Source: Cellulophaga sp. 20_2_10 (lineage in GTDB: Bacteria > Bacteroidota > Bacteroidia > Flavobacteriales > Flavobacteriaceae). Taken from it: a stretch of 64,000 nucleotides of DNA. The notes below the pieces were generated by a model. That model saw nothing but the letters and a program-made list of their open reading frames with translations. It was not told the DNA's origin and did not search any database. Position numbers and translations under genes: made by a program. Below, in pieces: positions 51,839 through 64,000 of this stretch (within the stretch, counting starts at the first letter, position 1; the number at the start of each line of letters is the position of its first letter). Location: positions 124,001 to 188,000 of the forward strand of contig NZ_JAMCOJ010000005.1 of assembly GCF_023476645.1 (NCBI RefSeq). The letters run 5' to 3'.

Positions 51839-51898
51839 AGGTTAAGGTTTTATAATTTGGGTTAGAAAAATTCTGTTATTACTATCATTTTTCTTCTG

Positions 51899-51964
51899 CA
51901 AATATAGAACGCAATACTATTTAAAAATCTGACTTTAAGGTCAGTAACCATTTACTGTAGATGA
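51899..51964 (-). promoter_or_regulatory. Shared promoter module 1 (receiver-GT2 gene)
   Basis: On the minus strand a TATATTTG -7 box (51899-51906, full TAnnTTTG match) has, 28 bp upstream, the first of two repeats (51934-51943, degenerate) and then the second (51955-51964, CTGTAGATGA on the plus strand). The same geometry occurs at 59262-59327 and 61086-61151. The surrounding TTTACTGTAGATGAATGG (51951-51968) is identical to 61138-61155. The degenerate repeat here lies in a near-palindrome, CTGACTTTAAGGTCAG. Confidence 0.7.
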
Positions 51965-52054
51965 ATGGTTTTTATGCTAGGACAACACACATTATATATA
52001 GTGCTACAATATGTCTATCTTTATCTTGTTATATATTCTTACAGGATTTAATTT

Positions 52055-55000
52055 ATGAAGAGAACCAATATTTTATTAATATTAGCTCTTATTATAGGCA
52101 TAGCTTTTCACGGTTCAAGTATTTTCTTTACTCTAGAGAATACTTATGATGCCCTTATTCATTTATTTTTTGCTGATCATTACGCCAATAGTTGGTTTGA
52201 ACCTTGGGATTTTCGTTGGTATACGGGCTTTACGGTACAGGCATACCCGCCACTGGTACATCAGCTAATTGCAATTTTATCGTACATAGGTGGTTTAAAA
52301 TTTGGAATGTTTTCTGTTGCTCTACTCGCCATTATCTTATTTATTACTGGTGCCTATAGGTTTGGATTACTAATGACAGCCAATAGGCAGGTTGCCGGAT
52401 ACACTGCTTTACTCGCCGTATTTTCATCTACATTTATAGAGACACTACATATTTTTGGGCAATTACCTAGTATTATGGGACTCTCCCTTTTACTACATAG
52501 TATACCTGAGATTTATTTATGGATAAAAGATGGTAAAATTAGATACCTAATAACCAGTCTTTCTTTAATTGCTGTTACAGTAACATCTCATCATGTTACA
52601 CCAATTTTTGGAATGGTATTCTTTATTTTTCCACTTATTGGTATGGTGGTTATGGATACCGCTAGAGATACAGTAGAGAAATCTAAAGACGTTAACTTTA
52701 AAGTATTTTTAACTGCCTTTAAAAAGCTTTTTTGGCGCATTGTAACCTTTGGCTTTTCATCGCTCTTACTTATTATATTTTGTATTTTACCCTATTGGAT
52801 AAACTCTAAAAAAAACCCAATTACCCAGGTTCCTATACCGCACGGATCTAGAGATAATTTTCTAGAAGTACTTTCTTCCGGACTCGTATTTTTTATGATT
52901 CCTTGGGGGATTCTCTTGTTTATTCTTCCGTACATTTTTTATAGATTTTATAGCAAAAGATATTTATTTTTTGGACTCTCTTTTTCTATGCTCCTTGTTT
53001 TAGGAACGGGCGGCACAACGCCTATTCCCTTAAAATTATTAGGCGAAACAGCTTTTAATATTTTAACCTTAGACCGCTTTACCCTTTGGGCTACTATTAT
53101 GGCTTTGCCCATTTTTGGAGAATTTGCCTACCGGATGGTAGAAGGTGATTTAAAACAGAATTTACAAAAACGTTTTGGTGCTGTTTACCATAGAATTCTT
53201 GGTGGTTTTTTTATGGGTGGCATTCTCTTTATGGTCATTTTTACAATGAGCTTAGGCTATTTTAGACCATCACAACCAGCCAAAATAAAGATGTTGCCTA
53301 TTGTAAATTTTTTAAATCAAGATCAACATGATCATTGGCGCTACTTAACTCTTGGTTTTGGAGACCAAATGGCGTGGTTGTCTGCACAAACAAAAGCAAT
53401 GACGGTAGATGGTAATTACCACTCTGCAAGACGCTTACCAGAACTTACAACACGAGCTATAGAACGATTAGAAAATTCTAAATTTAGAGGCGTAGAAGGT
53501 ATTGGCTCTTTACAGCAATTTTTAACCGTACCAGAAAAATACAATCTAAAGTATATATTTTCTAACGATAAGTTTTACGACCCTATTTTATATTACTGCG
53601 GGTGGCAAAGACTGCAGCAACTAGAAAATGGTATTATGGTTTGGGAAAAACTAAATGTACCACCCATACCTGCCATTATACCTAAAGAAGATGTCTCTAC
53701 CACCTTAAAAATAATGTGGAGCACCATACCTATACTAACAATTTTGTTTGCTTTTATTATAAACATACAATTGGTTTGGATACGTGTTTTAAAATCTAAA
53801 AAATTACCAGAACCGTCTTACTTAAAGTATAAATTAGTGTACAATAAGTTTTCTAAAAAATTAGTTACCGTAAATCATATCTGGGCAGTTATTGTGCTGG
53901 TTTGTTTGGCCTACGGCGGATATTTATTTTACGCAAAAAACACGACTCAGTTAAATGCCAAAAATGTAGTTACTGCCTATTATGACGCTATAGATTTTAA
54001 AGAGTTTGAAAGAGCTTTTTCTTATTTAAATCCTGATGATGATGTAAGCCTATCTCAATATATGTTAGAAGTATCTGTAACAGATGGTATTTTAAGTTCG
54101 TATGCCAAGTTAGACTCTATTGGTATTTCTTTTGTAAGCAAAACCAAAACTAGCGCTAGAGTAAAAGTTGACACTAGGTGGATAACACCTTTAGAGGCTG
54201 TTAACAAAACCTATTACCATACCGTTAAAAAAAGAAAAAACAAGTGGTATATAAGTCCGTCTAAAATTGACAATGACCTGCCACCAGATCAATTATTTAT
54301 AGATAACAATACTACCTTTTTTAATCACGGTAGACGTAAAATTACAACAGAACAAACACACCATGAAGATGTATTAAAACAACCTATTTTAGAAATCTTA
54401 ACTGCAAAGTTAGTAGAATACAATGGTAGGTATAGCATTATTGGCCAATTGCAAAACGTAGACAATGTTCCTTGTGATGTTGTTATAAAAGGCACACTTT
54501 ACAATCAAAAAAATAAAGAGCTAGCCAACTACAATGCTAAAGACAATATTAAGCACAAACTTATGCCAAAGGAGATTACCTCTTTTAAAATAAATTTTGA
54601 AGGCATAGCCTGGTCTTCAACAAAAGATACATTGCCGCCAACATTTAACCCAGATGAGTTTACACCTATTAATTTAGAAGAAATACCAACTAAATTTAAC
54701 TTGCAATGTGCAGGTAATGTTGCTAATACAGATTTATACAAAAAATTGTCTTTACAAGAGTTAAACTTTTCTAATGGCACAATGTCTGGCGCGCTATTTA
54801 ATTCTGGCGTGCAAGAAGTTACCATACCTCAGCTATTAATATCTTATTATGATGACGATAAAAAATTAGTTTGGGTAGATCATAATTTTTTAACCGAAGG
54901 CGTGCGGATACAACGAAAACAGTCTTTTAACTATGACTTGTTAGATTTAGAGGATTTGCATATTATTAATGACGATATGACAAACTGTTTTGTAAATGGT

Positions 55001-55141
55001 TCTCCGAATATTGAAATTGCAAAAAAAGTATTTCCTAATAGAAAAACAGAGCATATAGCAGAACAATTACAGGGACAAACAGGAAAAGGTTTTAGTTTTA
55101 TTAAACTAGAGATTAATAGCTACATAGGAAATCCAAAATAA
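52055..55141 (+). CDS. GT-C-like multi-pass membrane glycosyltransferase with large periplasmic C-terminus
   Basis: A 1028-residue inner-membrane protein. About 12 helices occupy residues 5-410, and one more near 560-575 and 605-625. The first loop carries NTYDALIHLFFADHYANSWF near 30-49, whose acidic/His pattern resembles the GT-C catalytic loop and the membrane family misnamed '6-pyruvoyl-tetrahydropterin synthase-related'. The soluble end has an NTF2-like domain (about 635-740, NAKNVVTAYYDAIDFKEF) and two FxLYD-like beta domains (about 780-850, ILEILTAKLVEYNGRYSIIG; and 890-970). It is likely to use the lipid-linked sugar made by the divergent receiver-GT2 protein. It is the first gene of a tight three-gene operon. 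Confidence 0.75.
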   Translation: MKRTNILLILALIIGIAFHGSSIFFTLENTYDALIHLFFADHYANSWFEPWDFRWYTGFTVQAYPPLVHQLIAILSYIGGLKFGMFSVALLAIILFITGAYRFGLLMTANRQVAGYTALLAVFSSTFIETLHIFGQLPSIMGLSLLLHSIPEIYLWIKDGKIRYLITSLSLIAVTVTSHHVTPIFGMVFFIFPLIGMVVMDTARDTVEKSKDVNFKVFLTAFKKLFWRIVTFGFSSLLLIIFCILPYWINSKKNPITQVPIPHGSRDNFLEVLSSGLVFFMIPWGILLFILPYIFYRFYSKRYLFFGLSFSMLLVLGTGGTTPIPLKLLGETAFNILTLDRFTLWATIMALPIFGEFAYRMVEGDLKQNLQKRFGAVYHRILGGFFMGGILFMVIFTMSLGYFRPSQPAKIKMLPIVNFLNQDQHDHWRYLTLGFGDQMAWLSAQTKAMTVDGNYHSARRLPELTTRAIERLENSKFRGVEGIGSLQQFLTVPEKYNLKYIFSNDKFYDPILYYCGWQRLQQLENGIMVWEKLNVPPIPAIIPKEDVSTTLKIMWSTIPILTILFAFIINIQLVWIRVLKSKKLPEPSYLKYKLVYNKFSKKLVTVNHIWAVIVLVCLAYGGYLFYAKNTTQLNAKNVVTAYYDAIDFKEFERAFSYLNPDDDVSLSQYMLEVSVTDGILSSYAKLDSIGISFVSKTKTSARVKVDTRWITPLEAVNKTYYHTVKKRKNKWYISPSKIDNDLPPDQLFIDNNTTFFNHGRRKITTEQTHHEDVLKQPILEILTAKLVEYNGRYSIIGQLQNVDNVPCDVVIKGTLYNQKNKELANYNAKDNIKHKLMPKEITSFKINFEGIAWSSTKDTLPPTFNPDEFTPINLEEIPTKFNLQCAGNVANTDLYKKLSLQELNFSNGTMSGALFNSGVQEVTIPQLLISYYDDDKKLVWVDHNFLTEGVRIQRKQSFNYDLLDLEDLHIINDDMTNCFVNGSPNIEIAKKVFPNRKTEHIAEQLQGQTGKGFSFIKLEINSYIGNPK

Positions 55142-55144
55142 ATT

Positions 55145-56374
55145 TTGAAGCACTATATATACATACTCGTTATACTTATATGCAGCTTTAGTTGCAGTAA
55201 AAGTGATGCCCCAAAAAAACAGGATACAAGTGCTATAACCACAACATTAGTAACTAAAAAAGATTCTTTTACGGCTGGTGATTCTATTGTATTAAAATTT
55301 TCTTCAACCAAAGAAAATGAAGCTGTTTTAATAGTAAAAAATGCATACGGGACTACAGTATTGCGTCCAAAGAAAGACAAAGAAATATCGACCTATAAAA
55401 TTCCTAATAGCTTTAGTACTATTGCTAACAAAATACATTGGGAGTTAATCTTAAGTTCTAAGAAATTAGCAACAGGTAGCCTACAAATTACACCAGACAC
55501 TACTAAAAAAACCAAACTAGAAACATATTTAGGACCAAGAAGTATTATTGCTGGTGGCTCCGATTTTTCTATGCTTGTTAATGTCCCTACAGATCGGTTA
55601 GATAACCCAATGTTAGATGATACTAAAGTTGCTATAAAACATCAATTTAAAAAAGAGATAACTGTAGACACCTTGAAAGTAAAAAGCTTAGTAGCCTGGA
55701 CGACTATTTTTTCTCCTAAAAAAACGGGACGTATTTTAATTACGTCTTTATCTAATGGTACTAAATCTAAAGAATTAACGTCTGTTATTTTGCCAGATAA
55801 TGCATCTGACTTTACCATAGATTACACTAGAAATCATAAATACGCAGATGGCAATCAAATTATTACATTTACATCATCCATAATAAAAGACAATCATGGT
55901 AATATAGTTAGTGACGGTACTTTGGTTTTATTCTCAGTAAAAAACAGTAGTGGTATACAGTTACAAACTAATGGCACAACTATTAATGGTGTTGCAAAAG
56001 CAAAATTATTACACCCCGCAAAAAAAGAGTCTTGGGTAGTTACAGCATATGTTACTGGTGCTGCAAAAAGCAATAATTTACCTGTAGATTTTGATGCTGC
56101 AATAGTAGACTATACAATTACATTTTCTAAAGATAATAGAACTATAACTATTGGACCAATAGAGAGTTTTATGCAACAATTGGTACCAGACGGATTAGCC
56201 GTTAAAGCCATTATTTACGACGCAAATAAAATAGTACTAAACACTAAAGAAACAACCACTTTAAAAGGGTTTGCAACATTTAATCTTGATAGTGATTTTT
56301 ACAAATCTAACGACTACAATATAACAATTGAAGCCGCTGGTATTAAAAAAAATAAAGCCATACACTTAAGATGA
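55145..56374 (+). CDS. Lipoprotein with Ig-like (bacterial Big-type) domains
   Basis: Envelope lipoprotein of 409 residues starting at a TTG codon (55145), the only start that keeps the lipoprotein signal (KHYIYILVILICSFSCSKS, lipidated at Cys17) and leaves 3 bases after the preceding stop. No ATG is available before the signal. The mature protein is all-beta: an N-terminal domain with DSIVLKFSSTKENEAVLIVK, a macroglobulin-like stretch YLGPRSIIAGGSDFSMLVNV, and a Big_1/invasin-like domain with DGNQIITFTSSIIKDNHGNIV. Its stop overlaps the next ATG by 4 bases. No enzymatic motif is seen; a structural or polymer-guiding role is an inference. Confidence 0.72.
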   Translation: MKHYIYILVILICSFSCSKSDAPKKQDTSAITTTLVTKKDSFTAGDSIVLKFSSTKENEAVLIVKNAYGTTVLRPKKDKEISTYKIPNSFSTIANKIHWELILSSKKLATGSLQITPDTTKKTKLETYLGPRSIIAGGSDFSMLVNVPTDRLDNPMLDDTKVAIKHQFKKEITVDTLKVKSLVAWTTIFSPKKTGRILITSLSNGTKSKELTSVILPDNASDFTIDYTRNHKYADGNQIITFTSSIIKDNHGNIVSDGTLVLFSVKNSSGIQLQTNGTTINGVAKAKLLHPAKKESWVVTAYVTGAAKSNNLPVDFDAAIVDYTITFSKDNRTITIGPIESFMQQLVPDGLAVKAIIYDANKIVLNTKETTTLKGFATFNLDSDFYKSNDYNITIEAAGIKKNKAIHLR

Positions 56375-57891
56375 AAAGAAACAGAAACATATACCGCATA
56401 CTTTTGCTTTTATCCTTTATAGGGTTAAATGCATTGTTGCTTTTTGGTATTAGCTCTATCTTATCTTATTTAAATACTGGCGCAGATAGGGCTTCTATTT
56501 TACATATTGAACAAAATTTTGAAGAAACATATACTCCTAAAATTACGTGGAGTAACACAACAAACGAAGGCAGACCTATAGAAGACCAGACTTTAAAAGC
56601 TGTAGAAAAAGATTATATAAGTGCTTGGAACGTTCGTAACCTAGCCTATGCAACAAACGATATGTATGGTATTGAAGACTACTATACAGAAAGCGCTAGA
56701 AAAAAAATAAACAACACCCTACAGTTAAATGCTAAAAACGGAACAACCTTAAAGACTACGACTATAAAGCACAACCCAACTGTAAATTTTTACAGCACGG
56801 ATGGCAAACTAATTGTGTTTACAGATCATAATGTAGCGCAATACCAAGAAGTTTATAGCAACAAAGAATTGGTTAGCACATACCATATTGCTCCTAGCTA
56901 CAAAGTTATGATGCTTTTAGAAGATGGTTTTTGGCGAATTAGACATTTGGTTGAAATAGAGCCTGATTCAGAAAAAAACAACCCAAGCCAAAGAGAAACT
57001 ATAGATGCAAAAAGTATAAAAGGTATTAATTACTATCCAAAAAACACTCCCTGGGATATGTATGGTAAAAAATACGACAGCGCTGTTTTACAAAAAGATT
57101 TTGGCCTAATACAGCAAATGGGACTAAATACAATTCGGGTTTTTGTGCCTTATGAAACCTTCGGCAAAGCTACTGTAGACCTAAAAAAATTAGCCCAACT
57201 AAAACAAACTCTAACTATTGCAGAACAGCATAATTTAAAAGTAATAGTTACTTTGTTTGATTTTTATGGTAATTATGATATTCAAGATTGGACTTTAACC
57301 CATAGGCACGCAGAACAAATTGTAACGGCACTTAAAGGTCATAACGCACTACTTGCCTGGGATATTAAAAATGAACCAGATTTAGATTTTGAATCTCGTG
57401 GAAAAGAAAAGGTAACTGCCTGGCTTACACAAATGATAAAAAATATAAAAGAGTGGGACAGTAAAACAAATGTTACTATTGGTTGGTCTAGTACAGAAGC
57501 TGCAGAAAACTTAGTTGAAGAAGTAGATTTTGTGTCTTTTCATTATTACAAAAAGCCTAAAGATTTTTTAAATGCTTATGCAGTTTTAAAAGAGAACAGT
57601 AAAGACAAGGATTTGGTTTTGCAAGAGTACGGTTATTCTTCTTATAGTGGTTTTTGGAACCTATATACTGGCTCTAATGACGACCAAGCAGAGTATTACA
57701 AAGAAATGCAAGCTTATGTGGCTCAAAAAAATATTCCGTTTGTATTATGGACTTTATATGATTTTGAAACCATACCAACTGCTGTGGTTGGTAGGTTGCC
57801 TTGGCGTAAAAAACAACAACAATATTTTGGTCTATTTACTACAGAGGGCAAAGCAAAAGAGGCTCTTACGTATATAAAAGCAAAAAAATAA
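56371..57891 (+). CDS. Membrane-anchored clan GH-A glycoside hydrolase with NTF2-like domain
   Basis: Inner-membrane-anchored hydrolase of 506 residues, catalytic part in the periplasm. One helix at about 8-30 (RILLLLSFIGLNALLLFGIS) is followed by an NTF2-like domain (about 65-195, LKAVEKDYISAWNVRNLAYA) and a GH-A barrel (about 215-500). Acid/base Glu335 in DIKNE335PDLDF and nucleophile Glu419 in LVLQE419YGYSS are present, with FHYYKKP between. It resembles GH5-type mannanase/glucanase-like enzymes. Placement with glycan assembly genes suggests it trims or releases the polymer, as PelA/PslG-type hydrolases do. It is the last gene of the operon and is followed by a strong terminator. Confidence 0.8.
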   Translation: MKRNRNIYRILLLLSFIGLNALLLFGISSILSYLNTGADRASILHIEQNFEETYTPKITWSNTTNEGRPIEDQTLKAVEKDYISAWNVRNLAYATNDMYGIEDYYTESARKKINNTLQLNAKNGTTLKTTTIKHNPTVNFYSTDGKLIVFTDHNVAQYQEVYSNKELVSTYHIAPSYKVMMLLEDGFWRIRHLVEIEPDSEKNNPSQRETIDAKSIKGINYYPKNTPWDMYGKKYDSAVLQKDFGLIQQMGLNTIRVFVPYETFGKATVDLKKLAQLKQTLTIAEQHNLKVIVTLFDFYGNYDIQDWTLTHRHAEQIVTALKGHNALLAWDIKNEPDLDFESRGKEKVTAWLTQMIKNIKEWDSKTNVTIGWSSTEAAENLVEEVDFVSFHYYKKPKDFLNAYAVLKENSKDKDLVLQEYGYSSYSGFWNLYTGSNDDQAEYYKEMQAYVAQKNIPFVLWTLYDFETIPTAVVGRLPWRKKQQQYFGLFTTEGKAKEALTYIKAKK

Positions 57892-57924
57892 AGGAGAAAC
57901 AGCTAACCATACTGTTTCTCCTTT
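57890..57924. terminator. Strong bidirectional terminator between convergent operons
   Basis: AAAGGAGAAACAG (57890-57902) and CTGTTTCTCCTTT (57912-57924) form a perfect 13-bp stem with a 9-base loop. It starts at the GH-A gene's stop codon and faces the GT4 gene ending at 57945. Confidence 0.8.
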
Positions 57925-57944
57925 GGGCTTAACCTAACCGTAAA

Positions 57945-59219
57945 TTATTTTGCTATAAGTTCATTTTTAATTTCTCCTTCTTTCTGTAATTCTCTTTCCT
58001 TTTCTCTTTCTGCTATAATAGTATCAATACTAACGTTACCGGATTTAGCCATTTGTATTGCTGTAAAGTAATCTACATACATCTGTGTAATATCAGACAT
58101 TGGCAAAGAACAAGCAGCTTTATAATTAGCTTTAGATAACTCTTCTCTATAATCGTCGTACGTTAATATGTTTTCTATTGCATCTGCTAAAGACTCAGCA
58201 CTTTCTGGCTCAAAAAATTCACCTCTATATCCTTCTTCTTTAACTAATATGCTTAGGTCGCCTAAATCTGGTAAAGCAACTGCCTTACCATAACTACCTG
58301 CTTGGTGCAATACACCAGAGCTACCCGTAGTAGATGTATAAGGAAACACAACTACAGCACTATCTCCAAAAATAACCGGTACATCCTCTTCTGCTACATA
58401 ACCAGTAAACCTTAATTGCGCTACGTGATTATACTTTTTGCTCACTTCATTTAAATAACCTGGTGTGTTTGGGCTATCTGTACCTGCTATAACTATTTCT
58501 ATATCTTGTTTTGTACGTTGGCGAATAATTTCTACTGCTTCTATTAAAACCTCAACTTTTTTATACGTTCCAAATTTTCCAAAAGCCATCACTTGCTTAG
58601 CCCCTTTAGGTAACTCATAAGTTGGTTCTGGTGGAGTTTCAAAAGCACCGTGTGGTATTAAAGCAACGTTTCTAGAGTTATATTTATCTTCTAATATACT
58701 CTTGTATTTACTAATTGTAACGGCTAACACATCTGAAGCTAAAACTACTTTTGTTAGTGTACTACCAATAAAGTTATAAGCTTTCTTTAAAAAGTTATTT
58801 TTAGTGATACCTGCATTTTCTAAATCTACTTGCTCTAATATATTATGTAATAAAGAAATTGTTGGTATTCCTTTTAATTTACATATTAATGGCAACATTA
58901 AACCCAACGCAGCAGGGACTTTTTTATCTCCAAATTTTAAAAACTGAAGGTTAAATAAAACTGCGTCTGGTTTAGTGTCTGCAATTGCACCCATAATACC
59001 AAAAACATTTTTGTAGCTATTAAAATCCCAGCATTCTTTAACTGTAATTTTACAACCATCTTCAGTAAAAGAAAGGTCTTTGGCTTCTTTGGTTTTGTCT
59101 GTAATTAAGACAATTTCAGTTACTTCTTTTTGTAATCTAAAATGTTTTACCAAGTGGTATCCGTACTCTGTTAAAGTTACTTTACTTGGTGGGTACGCTG
59201 TTACAATTGCTAATTTCAT
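57945..59219 (-). CDS. GT4 family glycosyltransferase
   Basis: GT-B-fold transferase of 424 residues from the ATG at 59219 (MKLAIVTAYPPSKVTLTEYG). An upstream in-frame start adding 15 residues is less likely because it lies at the predicted transcription start. The N-terminal domain has YHLVKHFRLQK; the C-terminal nucleotide-sugar domain has MAFGKFGTYKKVEVLIEAVE near 216-235, RFTGYVAEEDVPVIFGDSAV near 284-303 and VFPYTSTTGSSGVLHQAGSY near 304-323, then FFEPESAESLADAIENIL with the second acidic residue of the E-x7-E-type motif. It presumably adds sugars to the lipid-linked or growing chain in the cytosol. By size and context it is comparable to PelF, but identity is not shown. Confidence 0.87.
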   Translation of the reverse strand: MKLAIVTAYPPSKVTLTEYGYHLVKHFRLQKEVTEIVLITDKTKEAKDLSFTEDGCKITVKECWDFNSYKNVFGIMGAIADTKPDAVLFNLQFLKFGDKKVPAALGLMLPLICKLKGIPTISLLHNILEQVDLENAGITKNNFLKKAYNFIGSTLTKVVLASDVLAVTISKYKSILEDKYNSRNVALIPHGAFETPPEPTYELPKGAKQVMAFGKFGTYKKVEVLIEAVEIIRQRTKQDIEIVIAGTDSPNTPGYLNEVSKKYNHVAQLRFTGYVAEEDVPVIFGDSAVVVFPYTSTTGSSGVLHQAGSYGKAVALPDLGDLSILVKEEGYRGEFFEPESAESLADAIENILTYDDYREELSKANYKAACSLPMSDITQMYVDYFTAIQMAKSGNVSIDTIIAEREKERELQKEGEIKNELIAK

Positions 59220-59261
59220 AAGGTTAAGTTTTAAATACTTGTTTGGGTTAAATTTCTTATA

Positions 59262-59327
59262 CAAATATCCATCTTAAACCCTTATTTAATAGGCGCTTAG
59301 AGACGACTCAACTATTACTATAGACGA
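59262..59327 (-). promoter_or_regulatory. Shared promoter module 2 (GT4 gene)
   Basis: On the minus strand GATATTTG (59262-59269, one base off TAnnTTTG) is followed upstream, after the same 28-bp step, by repeats read on the plus strand as TTAGAGACGA (59297-59306) and CTATAGACGA (59318-59327), 21 bp apart and 8/10 identical. This copy lies upstream only of the leftward GT4 gene, which fixes the module's working direction. Confidence 0.7.
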
Positions 59328-59455
59328 ATGGAAAGAGTGTTTAGGTTAAAGGTTTTCATCGCAAAACGACGTAAAAAAAAAGATTTTATCTATTGTGTTA
59401 ATAAGAATAGAACTCCATTTTTATAATTAAACTAGAGCTGTCGAAAAACAAAAAA

Positions 59456-59483
59456 GCCCAAAACTTAATTAAAAGTCTTAGGC
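59456..59483 (-). terminator. Terminator after the flippase gene
   Basis: On the minus strand GCCTAAGACTT (59473-59483) pairs with AAGTTTTGGGC (59456-59466), allowing two G-U pairs, around a 6-base loop, then runs into TTTTTTG. It lies 38 bases after the flippase stop. Confidence 0.7.
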
Positions 59484-59520
59484 AGTTTCTCGGGGGGAAC
59501 AGTCATATTATAAGTAGGTC

Positions 59521-60756
59521 TTATATATTTCTTTTTAGTGAAAAATATAGCAACTGTGAAAAGAGCAGAGCTAGCATCACTATTATTTGTAATTGAACGA
59601 TCATAGCTAAACTACTATGAAAAAATACTATTAATCCTATTTGCGATAATCCTAATACTCCTGATAATATTACAGGAACGTAATAATCTAGAGATAAAAA
59701 GTAATATGCAAATATGTTAGAAATTGCAAAAAGGGAAGTTGCCAATGCATATTGCCATAATAATGAAGACATTGCTAAGTAAGCATCTCCGAACATTAAA
59801 GAGATTATTGTTTCTGGAAATATGTAACAAGCAGCAACTATAACAACAGATAATAAACTTATGTAACCAACATACTTAAACAAAATTGGTGCTGTGCGTT
59901 TACCTTCTTTTCTTTTTTCTATTACTGCTGGCAACAATAACATTACAAACATCCAGGCTACAAAGTAAACCACTCTACCAATTAATGCTAAAGAAGCATA
60001 AAGCCCGGCGTCTAAGGAATTAAAATAGTGCTTTACTAAAAGTACATCACTATTGTTTATTATAATCTGTGTAAGCTCGTAACCTGCAGTTAGTAGTATA
60101 AATGTGGTTACTTTCTTTTTATTTTCTGATGTTAAAATTTTAGAAGTTGCAAAAGATATTTTCTTGAATTTTACAGGGACAAGTCCAAAAACAAAAGAGA
60201 TAACTATACCTACTGCTACCAAAAAAGCAGGGTTCATAGGAATAAATAACAACAATGCTAGAGTTATTAAAAGTCTGCTCCACATTTCTGATTGATATGT
60301 TACAGACAAACCTGCGTAATCTTGTTTTCCTTGAAATTTTCCTCTTTTAACAGACATTACAAAATAAAGCGGAATACCAACTGCAAAAACCTTAAACATT
60401 GTAGATGATTGCGTATTAAATAACTGTTGTAAATCTTGTGAGAAGAAGAAAAGCAATGCTCCAATTGCAAATCCAAAAATAACAGCGTATTTCTGCATGT
60501 AATTTTCAAAAGCAATCCACTGGTCTCCAGAAAATAAAATATTAAATTTTGTAGTTACCAATTGAAAAGTCATTCCTACAAACGATAGCACTAATAATAA
60601 TGTTATTAGTAAAGCAGCATCTGCAAAGGCTGTTGGTCCCAACATACGACCTAATACTAAGTTATATAGGTAGTTTCCTCCGTTTACAACAAGCACACTT
60701 GTCATAAATAGTTGTTCTGGAGTAATCTTCTTTTTTACAAAACTAAACGCGGTCAT
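59521..60756 (-). CDS. Polysaccharide flippase/exporter (Wzx/PelG-like)
   Basis: Multi-pass inner-membrane exporter of 411 residues with about 12 helices, MOP-superfamily type. The opening ITPEQLFMTSVLVVNGGNYLYNLVLG (read in parts: TSVLVVNGGNYLYNLVLGRM near 20-39, then LGPTAFADAALLITLLLVLS) is standard for oligosaccharide flippases. Long loops contain FNILFSGDQWIAFENYMQKY. No other transporter lies in the cluster, so it should carry the lipid-linked or polymeric glycan across the inner membrane. Its ATG lies 14 bases inside the STAS-like gene, implying translational coupling with that regulator. Confidence 0.85.
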   Translation of the reverse strand: MTAFSFVKKKITPEQLFMTSVLVVNGGNYLYNLVLGRMLGPTAFADAALLITLLLVLSFVGMTFQLVTTKFNILFSGDQWIAFENYMQKYAVIFGFAIGALLFFFSQDLQQLFNTQSSTMFKVFAVGIPLYFVMSVKRGKFQGKQDYAGLSVTYQSEMWSRLLITLALLLFIPMNPAFLVAVGIVISFVFGLVPVKFKKISFATSKILTSENKKKVTTFILLTAGYELTQIIINNSDVLLVKHYFNSLDAGLYASLALIGRVVYFVAWMFVMLLLPAVIEKRKEGKRTAPILFKYVGYISLLSVVIVAACYIFPETIISLMFGDAYLAMSSLLWQYALATSLFAISNIFAYYFLSLDYYVPVILSGVLGLSQIGLIVFFHSSLAMIVQLQIIVMLALLFSQLLYFSLKRNI

Positions 60757-61045
60757 TGCTAAAGATATAAGATGTGTTAGACAAAATCATTACTGGTGCA
60801 ATTTGCTTATTCTCTTGACCAACAATAGTTAATACTTTATTATTTTTGGCTACCTTAATATATAATTGCTCTAATTGTTTGGCACTAGAAAAAACTATTT
60901 CGTTAACTCTTTCTAGAGACAAAATTAATTTTTCGTTACGCTTTAAATAAAAATCGATATGGTTGTTAAGTGTCTTCATATTCTGAGTGTTAAGATTTCC
61001 TTTTACTTCTAGAAACTCGTTGTTATGATTAATTTGTAAAGCCAT
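60743..61045 (-). CDS. STAS-like (anti-anti-sigma-fold) small protein
   Basis: Soluble 100-residue protein with the alternating beta-alpha pattern of a STAS domain: FLEVKGNLNTQNMKTLNNHI near 11-30, then KLILSLERVNEIVFSSAKQL near 39-58, where the strand plus S-S corresponds to the D-S-S-G region, and YIKVAKNNKVLTIVGQENKQ near 62-81. The usual Asp-Ser pair is replaced by Phe-Ser-Ser, so phosphorylation at Ser53/54 is possible but unproven. There is no kinase or anti-sigma partner in view. It overlaps the flippase start by 14 bases, and carries the shared promoter module upstream. It may regulate or scaffold the exporter. Confidence 0.65.
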   Translation of the reverse strand: MALQINHNNEFLEVKGNLNTQNMKTLNNHIDFYLKRNEKLILSLERVNEIVFSSAKQLEQLYIKVAKNNKVLTIVGQENKQIAPVMILSNTSYIFSNDRV

Positions 61046-61085
61046 AATTTTATATTTTAGGTTAAGTTTTGTTTTATTGATACAG

Positions 61086-61151
61086 CAAATATCAGAGAAC
61101 TTATTATCTTAAATTGGCGTCTGTAGACGACTAGACGTTTACTGTAGATGA
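61086..61151 (-). promoter_or_regulatory. Shared promoter module 3 (STAS/flippase operon)
   Basis: On the minus strand GATATTTG (61086-61093) is followed upstream, 28 bp on, by two near-perfect repeats, read on the plus strand as CTGTAGACGA (61121-61130) and CTGTAGATGA (61142-61151), 9/10 identical and 21 bp apart (two helical turns). It is the clearest of the three copies, and also lies upstream of the divergent TPR-barrel gene. Confidence 0.75.
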
Positions 61152-61271
61152 ATGGTTAGGTTTACTCTTTAAATAAAAAATTAGTTCTGTCTTAATTAAA
61201 TAAAACAAAGCACTAATAAATTTAAAATGTATTCGTTATATTACTGTAGTACTAAACCTACCTATTATATA

Positions 61272-63344
61272 ATGAAAAAAATTGTCTCCTTTTTTATATT
61301 CCTTATAACCATATCTTTAACTGCACAAGAAGACTTTACTCCTGGTTTTAAGTTATTAGAAAACGGAGATTTTAAAGAAGCGAAATCATTTTTTGAACCT
61401 TTTACAAAAAGCCTACCTACAAACAAAACTGTTTTAATTTGTTATGGTAGAGCAGTCGGTTTAAGCGGAGAACCAGATGTGGCCAACAGAATATTTAAAG
61501 ACCTCTTAGAAAAGCACCCTAATGATTTTGAAGTACAAATAAATTATTACGAGTCTTTCTTATGGGCAAATCAATTTAAAGAAGCAAAACCATTATATGC
61601 AAATCTAGTAGAAAACAACCCTACTAACTTTGCGGCCATTTTAGGGTATGCAAATACATTGAGTAATTTAAAGGAATATAAGGATGCTTTAAAATGGGTT
61701 AACAAAGCATTAGAAGTAGATCCTAATAATAGTAGCGCTAAAATATCTAGAAAATATATTAAGCTTGGCTACGCTAACTACTATGTAAATAACCAAAATT
61801 ATAAAAAGGGAGAGAGCCTATTAAACGAAATATTAGAAGATTTTCCGGATGATAAAGATGCGCTACTAAATCTAGCCAATATCTTTTTAATTACTAAAGA
61901 TGTAAAAAAGGCCAAAGAAACATATTACAGATACGCCAAAACACCCAAAGATTCTATAACAGCTCTAAACGGTGTTGCTTTAGCAGAGCATATAGGAGAA
62001 AAAGAAAAAATAGCTCTAGAAACCGCTACTATCGCTAAACAAAAAGCAACTAAACTTAATGACCCCAAGCTTTTAGAAAAAAGTGAAGAACGTTATGTGC
62101 AAGCATTAATCTGGAATAGAAAATTTGTATCTGCAAAACAAGAAATTAGCGCATTAGACCAAAAATATACAAACCGAAATTGGGTTATGGCACTAAAAGC
62201 TACATTGGGTATGTACACTGCTAAGTTTAAAACTAGTATTACTAATTATGACAAAATACTAGCAAACGATAGCTTATCTTTTGATGGTAATTTAGGAAAA
62301 GCAAATGCATTATTTGCGTCTGATAAAATTGTACCTGCATACATAACTACATATAAAACCTTAGATATTTTTCCCAAACAGAAAGATGCATCAGGCTTAA
62401 TTAAAAAGCTAAATACGAATTACACGCCATTTGCAGAACAGCAAGTTAGTTACACGTTTGATAATGGCGACAACACAGCTATATCTTTAAGAACTGCTGT
62501 TATGGTACCACTATCTACTAAATTTAGAACAATGGTATCTTACCAATATAGAACCACAGAAAATACCACTACAAACAACAAAGCAAATTCGCATATTGTA
62601 CAAGCTGATATTGAATATAAATTGATGCCGCAAACTAATTTATTAACCTCTATTGGCCTTAACAACTCTAGGTTTTCTAATACTGCATACACACAACCCA
62701 TTTTACAAGCTAAATTACAAATGAAGCCTTTATCTTTTTTAAACCTAGATTTAGGATACCAAAGAGAGGTACAAAACTTTAACGCAGAGCTTATAGAAAG
62801 AGAAATTGTGATGAACCATTACAGCTTAATTTATAACCTTAGTACTAATTTTAATTTAGGTTGGTATAGCCAACTTATACATACTAAGCAAACCGATGAC
62901 AATGAAAGAAATCTTTTATTTACTTCTTTATATTATAATGTATTGCAAAAACCTGCTTTAAAATTTGGTGTAAACTACCAATACATAACATTTAAAGATC
63001 AGTTACCATTAATATATTTTAGTCCGGACAAATACAAAGCATTAGAATTATTTGGTGATGTAAGAGGAAAAGTAAATGAAAAAACAAACTATTTTGCAAG
63101 CGCAGCAACTGGTTTACAATATGTAGAAGAACAAGATGCTAGTTCCCTTTTTAGAGCTGAAGCTGGTTTAACACATCAATTTTCTGATCGGTTAATTGGT
63201 GACGTCTATGGTAAATACAGTAACATAGCATCTGCAACAGCTGCTGGTTTTGAGTTTACTGAAGTTGGTATTAAACTAAAATACTACTTAACTAAACAGC
63301 CATTATTTTTAAATAAGCTCAAGAAAAAATATCAGATAAAATAA
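61272..63344 (+). CDS. TPR plus outer-membrane beta-barrel protein (PelB/YaiO-like exporter)
   Basis: Exported protein of 690 residues from the ATG at 61272 (MKKIVSFFIFLITISLTAQ, a signal peptide); an earlier ATG at 61227 would hide it. Residues 20-380 are TPR-like helical pairs: LLENGDFKEAKSFFEPF, LLEKHPNDFEVQINYYES, ALEVDPNNSSAKISRKYI and ALLNLANIFLITKDVKKAKE. Residues about 400-690 alternate beta strands of a YaiO/PelB-like barrel (QVSYTFDNGDNTAISLRTAV, MVSYQYRTTENTT, FTEVGIKLKYYL). The TPR-then-barrel order matches PelB/PgaA-type polysaccharide secretins. It is divergent from the STAS/flippase operon and probably exports the glycan made by this cluster. Confidence 0.82.
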   Translation: MKKIVSFFIFLITISLTAQEDFTPGFKLLENGDFKEAKSFFEPFTKSLPTNKTVLICYGRAVGLSGEPDVANRIFKDLLEKHPNDFEVQINYYESFLWANQFKEAKPLYANLVENNPTNFAAILGYANTLSNLKEYKDALKWVNKALEVDPNNSSAKISRKYIKLGYANYYVNNQNYKKGESLLNEILEDFPDDKDALLNLANIFLITKDVKKAKETYYRYAKTPKDSITALNGVALAEHIGEKEKIALETATIAKQKATKLNDPKLLEKSEERYVQALIWNRKFVSAKQEISALDQKYTNRNWVMALKATLGMYTAKFKTSITNYDKILANDSLSFDGNLGKANALFASDKIVPAYITTYKTLDIFPKQKDASGLIKKLNTNYTPFAEQQVSYTFDNGDNTAISLRTAVMVPLSTKFRTMVSYQYRTTENTTTNNKANSHIVQADIEYKLMPQTNLLTSIGLNNSRFSNTAYTQPILQAKLQMKPLSFLNLDLGYQREVQNFNAELIEREIVMNHYSLIYNLSTNFNLGWYSQLIHTKQTDDNERNLLFTSLYYNVLQKPALKFGVNYQYITFKDQLPLIYFSPDKYKALELFGDVRGKVNEKTNYFASAATGLQYVEEQDASSLFRAEAGLTHQFSDRLIGDVYGKYSNIASATAAGFEFTEVGIKLKYYLTKQPLFLNKLKKKYQIK

Positions 63345-63400: not shown

Positions 63401-64000
63401 TTATAATAAATTTAATCTTCTCATTAATTCTGGTCTATTAGACCTGCTAATTGGCACTACGTTTTTTTCTATTAACACACTATTGTCTTCTATATCTATA
63501 ATCTTAGTAAAGTTTATAATATAAGATCTGTGTATTTGCAAAAACAGCTTTTCTGGTAATTTATCTTTAATCTTCTTTAGCGTATTACGTACTCTATAGG
63601 TTTCTTTTACTGTTTTAACTTCTATATAATCTCCTTTGGCTTCTATTAACTGTATGTCGTTAAAATTTATTTTTATTAGTCGCCTGTCTATATTAATATA
63701 CAATTCTTCACCTATCTCAGAGCTAGATGATGAACTTTGTGTTACCGACTCTACCTGTGACTGCTGAGAAAGTGATTTTTTTATTTTTTGTATCGATTTT
63801 TCAAAACGTTCTAGTGTAACTGGCTTTACCAAATAATCTACAATAGCCTCGTACTCATAAGCTTCTATTGCAAAGTTTGTGTCAGAAGTCGTTAAAACTA
63901 TTTTTGGTGGATTTTTTAATGTCTGCACAAAATCAAAACCACTAAAACCTGGCATATGTATATCTAAAAAGATTACATCTACTGTATTCTGATTTAAAAA
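63401..64000 (-). CDS. LytTR-family response regulator (5' end cut by right window edge)
   Basis: Transcription regulator of the LytTR class. The window holds the last 199 codons plus the stop. The frame is open to the edge: reading outward from the apparent Met at 63955 gives FLNQNTVDVIFLDIHMPGFS, so the receiver phosphorylation Asp (FLD) lies upstream of that Met and the true start is beyond 64000. Receiver end: KIVLTTSDTNFAIEAYEY and DYLVKPVTLERFEKSI. After a Ser-rich linker (about 85-95 of the visible part), the LytTR DNA-binding domain follows: GEELYINIDRRLIKINFNDI, IEAKGDYIEVKT, KKIKDKLPEKLFLQIHRSYI. It is the likely reader of the shared 21-bp-spaced repeats; its histidine kinase is not in the window. 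Confidence 0.9.
   Translation of the reverse strand, partial: FLNQNTVDVIFLDIHMPGFSGFDFVQTLKNPPKIVLTTSDTNFAIEAYEYEAIVDYLVKPVTLERFEKSIQKIKKSLSQQSQVESVTQSSSSSSEIGEELYINIDRRLIKINFNDIQLIEAKGDYIEVKTVKETYRVRNTLKKIKDKLPEKLFLQIHRSYIINFTKIIDIEDNSVLIEKNVVPISRSNRPELMRRLNLL

Follow-up and report, generated by a model that had tools for sequence, protein, structure and literature searches.

Three leftward promoters in a 64,000-base-pair (bp) stretch of the Cellulophaga sp. 20_2_10 genome (NZ_JAMCOJ010000005.1, positions 124,001 to 188,000 of the forward strand; here called the window) carry one and the same site, two direct repeats set 21 bp apart at a fixed distance upstream of a -7 box. A further copy of the site heads an operon that encodes H-NOX, a FIST/NosP-like protein, two kinases and, as its last gene, a LytTR response regulator. 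Among the Flavobacteriaceae the site tracks this LytTR protein and not H-NOX, and the repeats are very probably bound by it, a regulator encoded together with proteins resembling nitric oxide (NO) sensors. Taken as a whole, the site, a LytTR regulon and an H-NOX/FIST operon circuit form the best explanation of the observations, to which we give a probability of about 0.8.

A paired direct repeat before three leftward promoters

Positions are given in window coordinates, and the layout was read directly on the minus-strand transcripts. The promoters precede genes for a receiver domain fused to a GT2 glycosyltransferase (REC-GT2), a second glycosyltransferase (GT4) and a STAS protein whose gene overlaps that of a flippase-like protein. 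On the transcribed strand the distal repeat is followed by the proximal repeat, 28 bp, the box and the gene. The box, CAAATAT(A/C) on the forward strand, starts exactly 35 bp from the start of the promoter-proximal repeat at all three promoters, leaving a gap of 28 bp between the 7-bp CAAATAT and that repeat, and the period from proximal to distal repeat is 21 bp at each (Table 1). Box, offset, period and second copies are exactly as the original prediction had quoted them. The leaders (51839-51880, 59220-59255 and 61046-61075) also have in common TTAACC-like stretches near the start codon, which recur in close relatives and could be widespread in genomes of this kind.

A 16-mer around the distal copy has 27 matches in the genome at up to two mismatches, versus 15 for a backwards control. 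At up to one mismatch there are five, the three window sites and two more, each just upstream of a gene. One of the two (C45:193655) stands at the head of the operon to which the LytTR gene itself belongs, and the fixed arrangement of repeats and box is present at its promoter too. The gene order of this operon is REC, H-NOX, PAS histidine kinase, FIST/NosP-like protein, second kinase, Hpt-like protein and LytTR. The lone REC protein at its head consists of a receiver domain only, and the sequence of the 105-amino-acid product, which has no Pfam or NCBIfam match, suggests that it is Hpt-like. The other site precedes the gene of an 870-amino-acid DUF6923 protein with a type IX sorting tail, and has an extra 21 bp and an apparent third half-site.

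A sequence-only model, built from 47 sites of only four promoter classes, all from Cellulophaga, gives seven matches in the same genome at an expectation value (E) of 2.3e-4 or below, the next match being at 0.036. Four of the seven are on C45, namely the three window promoters and the H-NOX operon; the remaining three precede genes for a PAS-HisKA-HATPase kinase (C34:23278), a secreted protein of about 80 amino acids (C34:40615) and the DUF6923 protein. Many unrelated copies of the motif, which could have told against the original prediction, were thus not found in the genome search. The candidate regulon extends outside the cluster, to the H-NOX operon and three remote promoters that the prediction had missed. 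Within the cluster it is narrower: among the model matches listed (E <= 10), no site faces the rightward genes at 52055-57891 and 61227-63344, and a sense-strand pair is present before 0/36 homologues of the TPR gene at 61227 in loci outside Cellulophaga. Shared regulation of the three leftward promoters through a LytTR-type direct-repeat site is supported, and the proposal that the whole 13-kb cluster is one regulon is rejected.

Eighteen Cellulophaga genomes were searched. H-NOX is present in 17 of them (the closest named H-NOX locus is that of C. fucicola), REC-GT2 has a close match in 15, and GT4 and the flippase are found in 15 each. Site and box lie before REC-H-NOX in 17/17 genomes having H-NOX, before STAS in 6/6 genomes with STAS directly before the flippase (only these were examined), before GT4 in 11/15 and before REC-GT2 in 13/15 used, the footprint scores being fitted on the very sequences scored. 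Left out of the model were RECGT2_G017, RECGT2_G010 and the GT4 upstream regions of G003, G015, G016 and G017; in G015 and G017 the site stands instead before the flippase gene preceding GT4, and in G003 and G016 no site was seen in the 170 nucleotides inspected before the flippase. The most informative alignment columns, 12 and 33, hold one C per half-site and are 21 bp apart. The sole genome without H-NOX, G012, has a best model match of 0.052 and the other 17 genomes reach 5.5e-9 or better, a contrast that amounts to consistency, not proof, because the 17 H-NOX promoters were in the training set.

The site outside Cellulophaga and the protein it tracks

The best 80 of 344 named H-NOX matches provided a set of loci, 71 of them after removal of nine from Cellulophaga. 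Operon order is kept in most of the 80, and flippase, GT4, STAS or TPR genes are near in many. Model matches at E <= 0.3 fall on the operon strand in 155/163 cases, the strong ones mostly just upstream of REC. A pair of TTCRTCTACA copies (up to two mismatches each) spaced by exactly 21 bp is present in 46/71 REC upstream regions outside Cellulophaga; 100 dinucleotide shuffles gave at most 1 and the reverse strand 0. Spacing of 42 bp occurs in 8/71 loci, and the commonest other spacing was seen twice. In 21 of the 46 paired regions, TTTG and the start of the proximal copy are exactly 42 bp apart. A looser pair rule finds pairs before REC in 62/71 cases and before HK1 in 1/44, and none before H-NOX (0/71), Hpt (0/66), FIST (0/45) or HK2 (0/44). 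When the whole 80 loci are scanned for strict pairs, 81 lie on the operon strand, including 49 before REC, 12 before STAS, flippase, GT4 or REC-GT2 and 6 before genes labelled LytTR; these 6, like 5 so labelled under the looser rule, are probably REC genes because the LytTR query hits REC in several cut contigs. By eye, three tandem half-sites at 21-bp steps can be seen upstream of REC in L264 and at L029:4174-4268.

These figures bear on the alternative that AT-rich promoter sequence merely looks like such a site by chance. The proximal half at 51934 does not rise above chance, but conservation, exact spacing, strand bias and co-occurrence with LytTR leave this explanation a negligible probability, and we reject it. 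The original prediction had held that fixed spacing at three sites is hard to explain by chance, which the 46/71 pairs against a shuffle maximum of 1 bear out. Nor was a lack of conservation in related genomes, which could have spoken against it, found in the genus or beyond.

For co-occurrence, 199 Flavobacteriaceae genomes were searched, with LytTR orthologues defined at E <= 1e-70 and a main site cut-off of E <= 1.9e-4 that was set post hoc, the best LytTR-negative genome being at 2.0e-4. Filters were stricter here than in the searches of the own genome, the genus and Euzebyella and Pseudozobellia, and the matches are partly listed. A LytTR orthologue is present in 81 genomes. At the main cut-off 67 genomes have both, 0 the site only, 14 LytTR only and 118 neither (Fisher p 2e-39); the corresponding numbers are 68, 5, 13 and 113 at E <= 0.001 and, with sites in 88 genomes, 74, 14, 7 and 104 at E <= 0.01 (Fisher 1.5e-31). 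All these p values overstate independence because the genomes of the family are related by descent. The 14 site-only genomes at E <= 0.01 have values from 2.0e-4 to 0.0084. H-NOX occurs in 77 genomes and together with LytTR in 71, of which 66 have the two within 8 kb. Sites at the main cut-off are found in 0/6 genomes with H-NOX only, 5/10 with LytTR only and 0/112 with neither protein. Among the best listed matches (E <= 7.9e-6, outside the own genome), 74/88 are at most 20 kb from LytTR.

The H-NOX operons of Euzebyella marina and Pseudozobellia thermophila lack LytTR, and the model search found no site there. This absence is weak alone because, among the five of the 80 loci without a model match, LytTR is absent from two (L262 and L265) and present at three (L221, L236 and L254). 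The relocated LytTR orthologues, 77% (Euzebyella) and 72% (Pseudozobellia) identical, stand beside a second REC and a flippase-like gene, with a GT4-like gene as well in Euzebyella (L299:4524-11425 and L300:7551-10574). The best whole-genome sites of both lie before this second REC and this flippase-like gene, at E 2.8e-8 and 2.3e-7 in Euzebyella and 0.041 and 0.015 in Pseudozobellia. The site tracks LytTR, not H-NOX; H-NOX alone is rejected, since relocated LytTR carries sites and genomes with only H-NOX have none at the main cut-off.

Co-occurrence, relocation with the regulator and the site in its own operon promoter make the LytTR protein at 63401-64000, the binder proposed originally, a well-supported candidate. 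We give a slim chance to the view that another regulator or a sigma factor binds the sites and LytTR is merely a neighbour. LytTR paralogues are many, each of seven genomes having 10-18 matches at E <= 1e-15, and binding by this LytTR is a prediction; but the site occurs in 0/118 genomes free of the orthologue at the main cut-off (14/118 at 0.01) and in 0/6 of those with H-NOX only, it adjoins LytTR where LytTR is away from H-NOX, and the REC beside the relocated LytTR resembles the lone, receiver-only REC of the Cellulophaga sp. 20_2_10 operon (62-64% identity).

Promoter architecture and input signal

The flavobacterial sigma-A box is given as TAnnTTTG at -12 to -5 in PMC9723704. Over the 47 sites the -7 box reads.AnnTTTG at a fixed column in 39/47, and a TTG 19-27 nucleotides before it, the expected -33 element, is found in 3/47. 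The proximal repeat would accordingly lie near -50 to -41 and the distal one near -71 to -62. The promoter-proximal repeats of AgrA centre near -60 (PMC4227749), and in LytTR Regulatory Systems (LRS) the repeats show a preference for standing 10 bp from the -35 (PMC6193735). Because of the repeat positions and the TTG count of 3/47, we favour activation, by a LytTR dimer that sits on one face of the helix. The site also has the other marks of a LytTR operator: two imperfect direct repeats of about 9-11 bp, 11-13 bp apart, although weak at the first window site, lie just upstream of the core promoter, and a cognate LytTR is present and linked.

We propose that the operator consists of two direct copies of approximately TTCRTCTACAG, 21 bp or two helical turns apart, the proximal one ending 28 bp before.AnnTTTG. 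LytTR would bind it as a dimer to one face of the DNA and activate sigma-A polymerase at promoters without the -33 TTG, and the same operator at the head of its operon would make it autoregulatory. H-NOX, the FIST/NosP-like protein, the two kinases and the Hpt-like protein would feed LytTR by phosphorelay. The output would include the receiver-GT2 fusion, the glycosyltransferase and the STAS-flippase pair, possibly making a surface polysaccharide, and further a PAS kinase, small secreted proteins and a large secreted protein. The same protein at the same site might instead repress all or some of the targets until the signal relieves it, as the sign of regulation is unreadable from sequence and AgrA acts as a repressor too, at bsaA, where its site lies downstream of the promoter (PMC4227749). 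This is clearly unlikely: a gap of 28 bp keeps the half-sites upstream of the -7 box without overlap, the rarity of a TTG at the -33 place (3/47) suggests activator dependence, and the layout is like that of activating LytTR repeats.

H-NOX carries the HNOB domain (PF07700, E=2.8e-39), aligns end to end (1-179) with the Kordia algicida protein 6bde/6bdd (6bde E=3.1e-57) and has the stretch HIHV.V.K.YPDAELPTF in common with 6bde. This stretch contains the proximal haem histidine. The FIST protein has FIST and FIST_C domains. Because the LytTR operon also encodes H-NOX, FIST, kinases and the Hpt-like protein, the input is likely to be NO or a related haem/redox cue, and the alignment of H-NOX over its length makes NO the likely one. 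The entry 6BDD is used as the Ka H-NOX structure in PMC7356049, and PMC8738867 reports a group in which FIST genes lie close to hnox and mentions outputs through both cyclic di-GMP and gene expression. The regulon could be right and its input different, H-NOX and the FIST protein answering to redox or another ligand, or another kinase driving LytTR. Ten genomes have LytTR with H-NOX undetected, sites persist in 5 of them, and haem-free redox sensing by some H-NOX proteins is described (PMC8738867); set against the 8-kb linkage of H-NOX and LytTR in 66/71 genomes having both, and the closeness of H-NOX to the solved Kordia protein, such an input is possible but rather unlikely.

A number of observations weigh against the LytTR circuit. 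The proximal half at 51934 is poor, and the 51934/51955 pair is unconvincing alone because 14% of shuffles reach 5/10 or better. In the genus, 4/15 GT4 and 2/15 REC-GT2 promoters have no usable site, and the strict TAnnTTTG box is present in just 13/47 sites, all from Cellulophaga, on which the model was trained. Outside the genus the polysaccharide promoters are patchy (STAS 7/23, flippase 6/23, GT4 1/19, REC-GT2 1/8). Fourteen operon-strand pairs of the strict scan precede no gene of the known set and 11 pairs are on the opposite strand; antisense pairs stand at 15/36 TPR genes, where we assign them to the divergent gene, at 4 HK2 genes and at 1 HK1 gene. Loci L221, L236 and L254 have LytTR yet no model match (though L221 and L254 show half-sites on inspection by eye), and no pair at up to three mismatches is present in 9/80 loci, 7 of them with LytTR. 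Across the 199 genomes, 14/81 with LytTR are without a site at 1.9e-4 and 7 at 0.01, where the contrast softens, 14 LytTR-negative genomes having a match, including 3/6 with H-NOX only; the shared descent that inflates the Fisher tests belongs here too. Pseudozobellia (G035) is itself one of these LytTR genomes without a site, its two sites scoring only 0.015 and 0.041, though their half-sites are plain by eye. With 64.2 bits against the NosP equivalog cut-off of 450 (NF041558), the FIST protein can be named FIST/NosP-like only, and it was not found in 29/80 loci, some being cut contigs. What the computations show is the site with its spacing and conservation, its link to LytTR and the content of the operon, and from these we infer binding, activation, the order of the phosphorelay, NO as the ligand and polysaccharide as the product.

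Genes, further candidate targets and known systems

Table 1. Sites and genes of the window (box and half-site sequences as on the transcribed strand)
Feature	Position	Strand	Basis or remark
-7 box TATATTTG, REC-GT2 promoter	51899..51906	-	direct reading; conserved alignment column
Proximal half-site, weak	51934..51943	-	5/10 identity to distal 10-mer; GACCT kept in four close relatives (L032-L035)
Distal half-site TCATCTACAG	51955..51964	-	model E=2.7e-13, training sequence
-7 box GATATTTG, GT4 promoter	59262..59269	-	direct reading
Proximal half-site	59297..59306	-	8/10 identity to distal 10-mer
Distal half-site TCGTCTATAG	59318..59327	-	model E=5.0e-12, training sequence
-7 box GATATTTG, STAS-flippase promoter	61086..61093	-	direct reading
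Proximal half-site TCGTCTACAG	61121..61130	-	9/10 identity to distal 10-mer
Distal half-site TCATCTACAG	61142..61151	-	model E=4.7e-13, training sequence
Target: receiver domain fused to GT2 glycosyltransferase, 383 amino acids	50687..51838	-	domain search
Target: glycosyltransferase group 1, here called GT4, 424 amino acids	57945..59219	-	PF00534, PF13692
Target: MOP-superfamily polysaccharide flippase-like protein, 411 amino acids, overlaps STAS gene	59521..60756	-	fold match
Target: single STAS domain, 100 amino acids	60743..61045	-	PF01740
TPR protein, 705 amino acids, weak PgaA-like match, no site facing	61227..63344	+	domain and site searches
LytTR response regulator, C-terminal 199 of 239 amino acids; gene runs past window	63401..64000	-	last gene of H-NOX operon

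The flippase-like protein has no Pfam match of its own and a profile search of the PDB gave 0 matches; 4/11 of its aligned homologues match Polysacc_synt_3. Its predicted fold (mean predicted local distance difference test, pLDDT, 77.4) finds MOP structures in Foldseek, namely MATE 3vvn (7.5e-8), WzxE 9g9o (5.0e-7) and MurJ 6nc9 (8.2e-7). Matches of the LytTR protein in phmmer are mostly receiver-domain structures. The TPR protein scores 38.9 bits against PgaA (TIGR03939), under the curated cut-off of 366.65 bits. The receiver-GT2 fusion, itself a candidate target, might have its sugar transfer directly controlled by phosphorylation.

In relatives, sites outside the training set precede each copy in arrays of small secreted proteins, with five matches in G009 and three each in G001, G011 and, putatively, G002. 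These tandem arrays of proteins of about 80 amino acids (MKTILTILFVLFIGLFAQAQ...VARLY...) are seen at L168:2038-4927, L179, L183 and L167:3220-4914, several copies having repeat-site promoters of their own; the two proteins scanned have no Pfam match. A conserved hydrophobic microprotein of 36-39 amino acids (e.g. MKTFILVSTLKILVTGLKTVISTTVVGVAFAIAGLL) is encoded at 21/80 loci (L199:13667, L195:13668, L204:15883 and 18 further loci), always on the operon strand although both strands were searched. Its ATG lies 115-159 bp after the LytTR stop, and 15/21 have a loose repeat pair at most 170 nucleotides upstream. In Cellulophaga sp. 20_2_10 the microprotein is not at that place, since only about 57 bp separate the LytTR stop from the end of the TPR gene. 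Repeat sites also stand before secreted proteins of about 830-860 amino acids (L195:13968, L202:7559, L211:14259, L193:14263, L207:14259), and in L299 (6122-8626) a protein that begins similarly carries DUF4114 and a type IX sorting tail. At L241:15383-15454 and L257:13398-13466 a repeat site and -7 box are followed by terminator-like inverted repeats, with no open reading frame within about 190 bp; judged by eye, these are possible regulated small RNAs. Weaker model matches at L176:2494 (E 5.2e-5) and L177:1744 (7.2e-5), in G007 and G017, lie 313 and 390 bp before small MKKLTNREEEVM... genes.

The class of site is known, that of LytTR direct repeats, and what is new is the regulon, the operator sequence and the tie to an H-NOX/FIST operon in Flavobacteriaceae; among the open-licence papers that the searches listed, no description of this circuit was found, judged by titles and abstract openings. 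AgrA, as well as HdrR/BrsR and other LRS, likewise have paired imperfect direct repeats just upstream of the promoter and a LytTR regulator encoded close by, with autoregulation in the LRS (PMC6193735, PMC4227749), the LRS repeats being mostly 12 and in some cases 11 or 13 bp apart (PMC6193735). The system described here is different: its regulator, a true response regulator, follows a multi-kinase H-NOX/FIST operon instead of being half of a regulator-membrane-inhibitor pair, it has a half-site of its own, TTCRTCTACAG, and its core is of the Bacteroidota -7 type without the -33 TTG. LRS-like operons of Bacteroides are similar in having repeats 11 bp apart upstream of a TATCTTTG box, but their repeat is TCCGGTATTCA, their LytTR proteins have transmembrane segments, and the gap to the -7 box is 34 bp (our sum, 11+4+19) versus 28 here (PMC6193735).

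On the input side, the closest solved relative is the Kordia algicida H-NOX (6bdd, 6bde), for which the sources consulted describe the protein only, and no pathway. A review describes how NO controls biofilm in Proteobacteria by means of H-NOX and NosP, for the most part by way of cyclic di-GMP or quorum sensing (PMC8738867). Our findings suggest that one gas-sensing circuit switches surface-sugar and signalling genes in many marine bacteria. Tentatively, at a little short of even odds, we see in it a Flavobacteriaceae-wide NO switch acting through transcription and not a second messenger, in which H-NOX and FIST signal by phosphorelay to LytTR and so to its own operon, surface-polysaccharide genes, tandem small secreted proteins and, in other genera, the undescribed membrane microprotein. 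If so, the same relay could also phosphorylate the receiver-glycosyltransferase fusion. The probable end point of the H-NOX pathway in this marine, often alga-associated family would be a single transcription factor with a readable operator, and the regulon would therefore be predictable in other genomes, giving candidate functions to unannotated genes such as those of the tandem small secreted proteins, the microprotein and the receiver-glycosyltransferase fusion. The H-NOX/NosP systems of Shewanella, Vibrio and Legionella similarly combine H-NOX and FIST-family sensors with neighbouring histidine kinases and a proposed surface or biofilm output; most of the outputs given for them are cyclic di-GMP enzymes or quorum-sensing relays, and pathways acting on gene expression are mentioned too (PMC8738867), whereas the operon described here ends in a gene for a LytTR transcription factor whose operator is mapped in polysaccharide genes.

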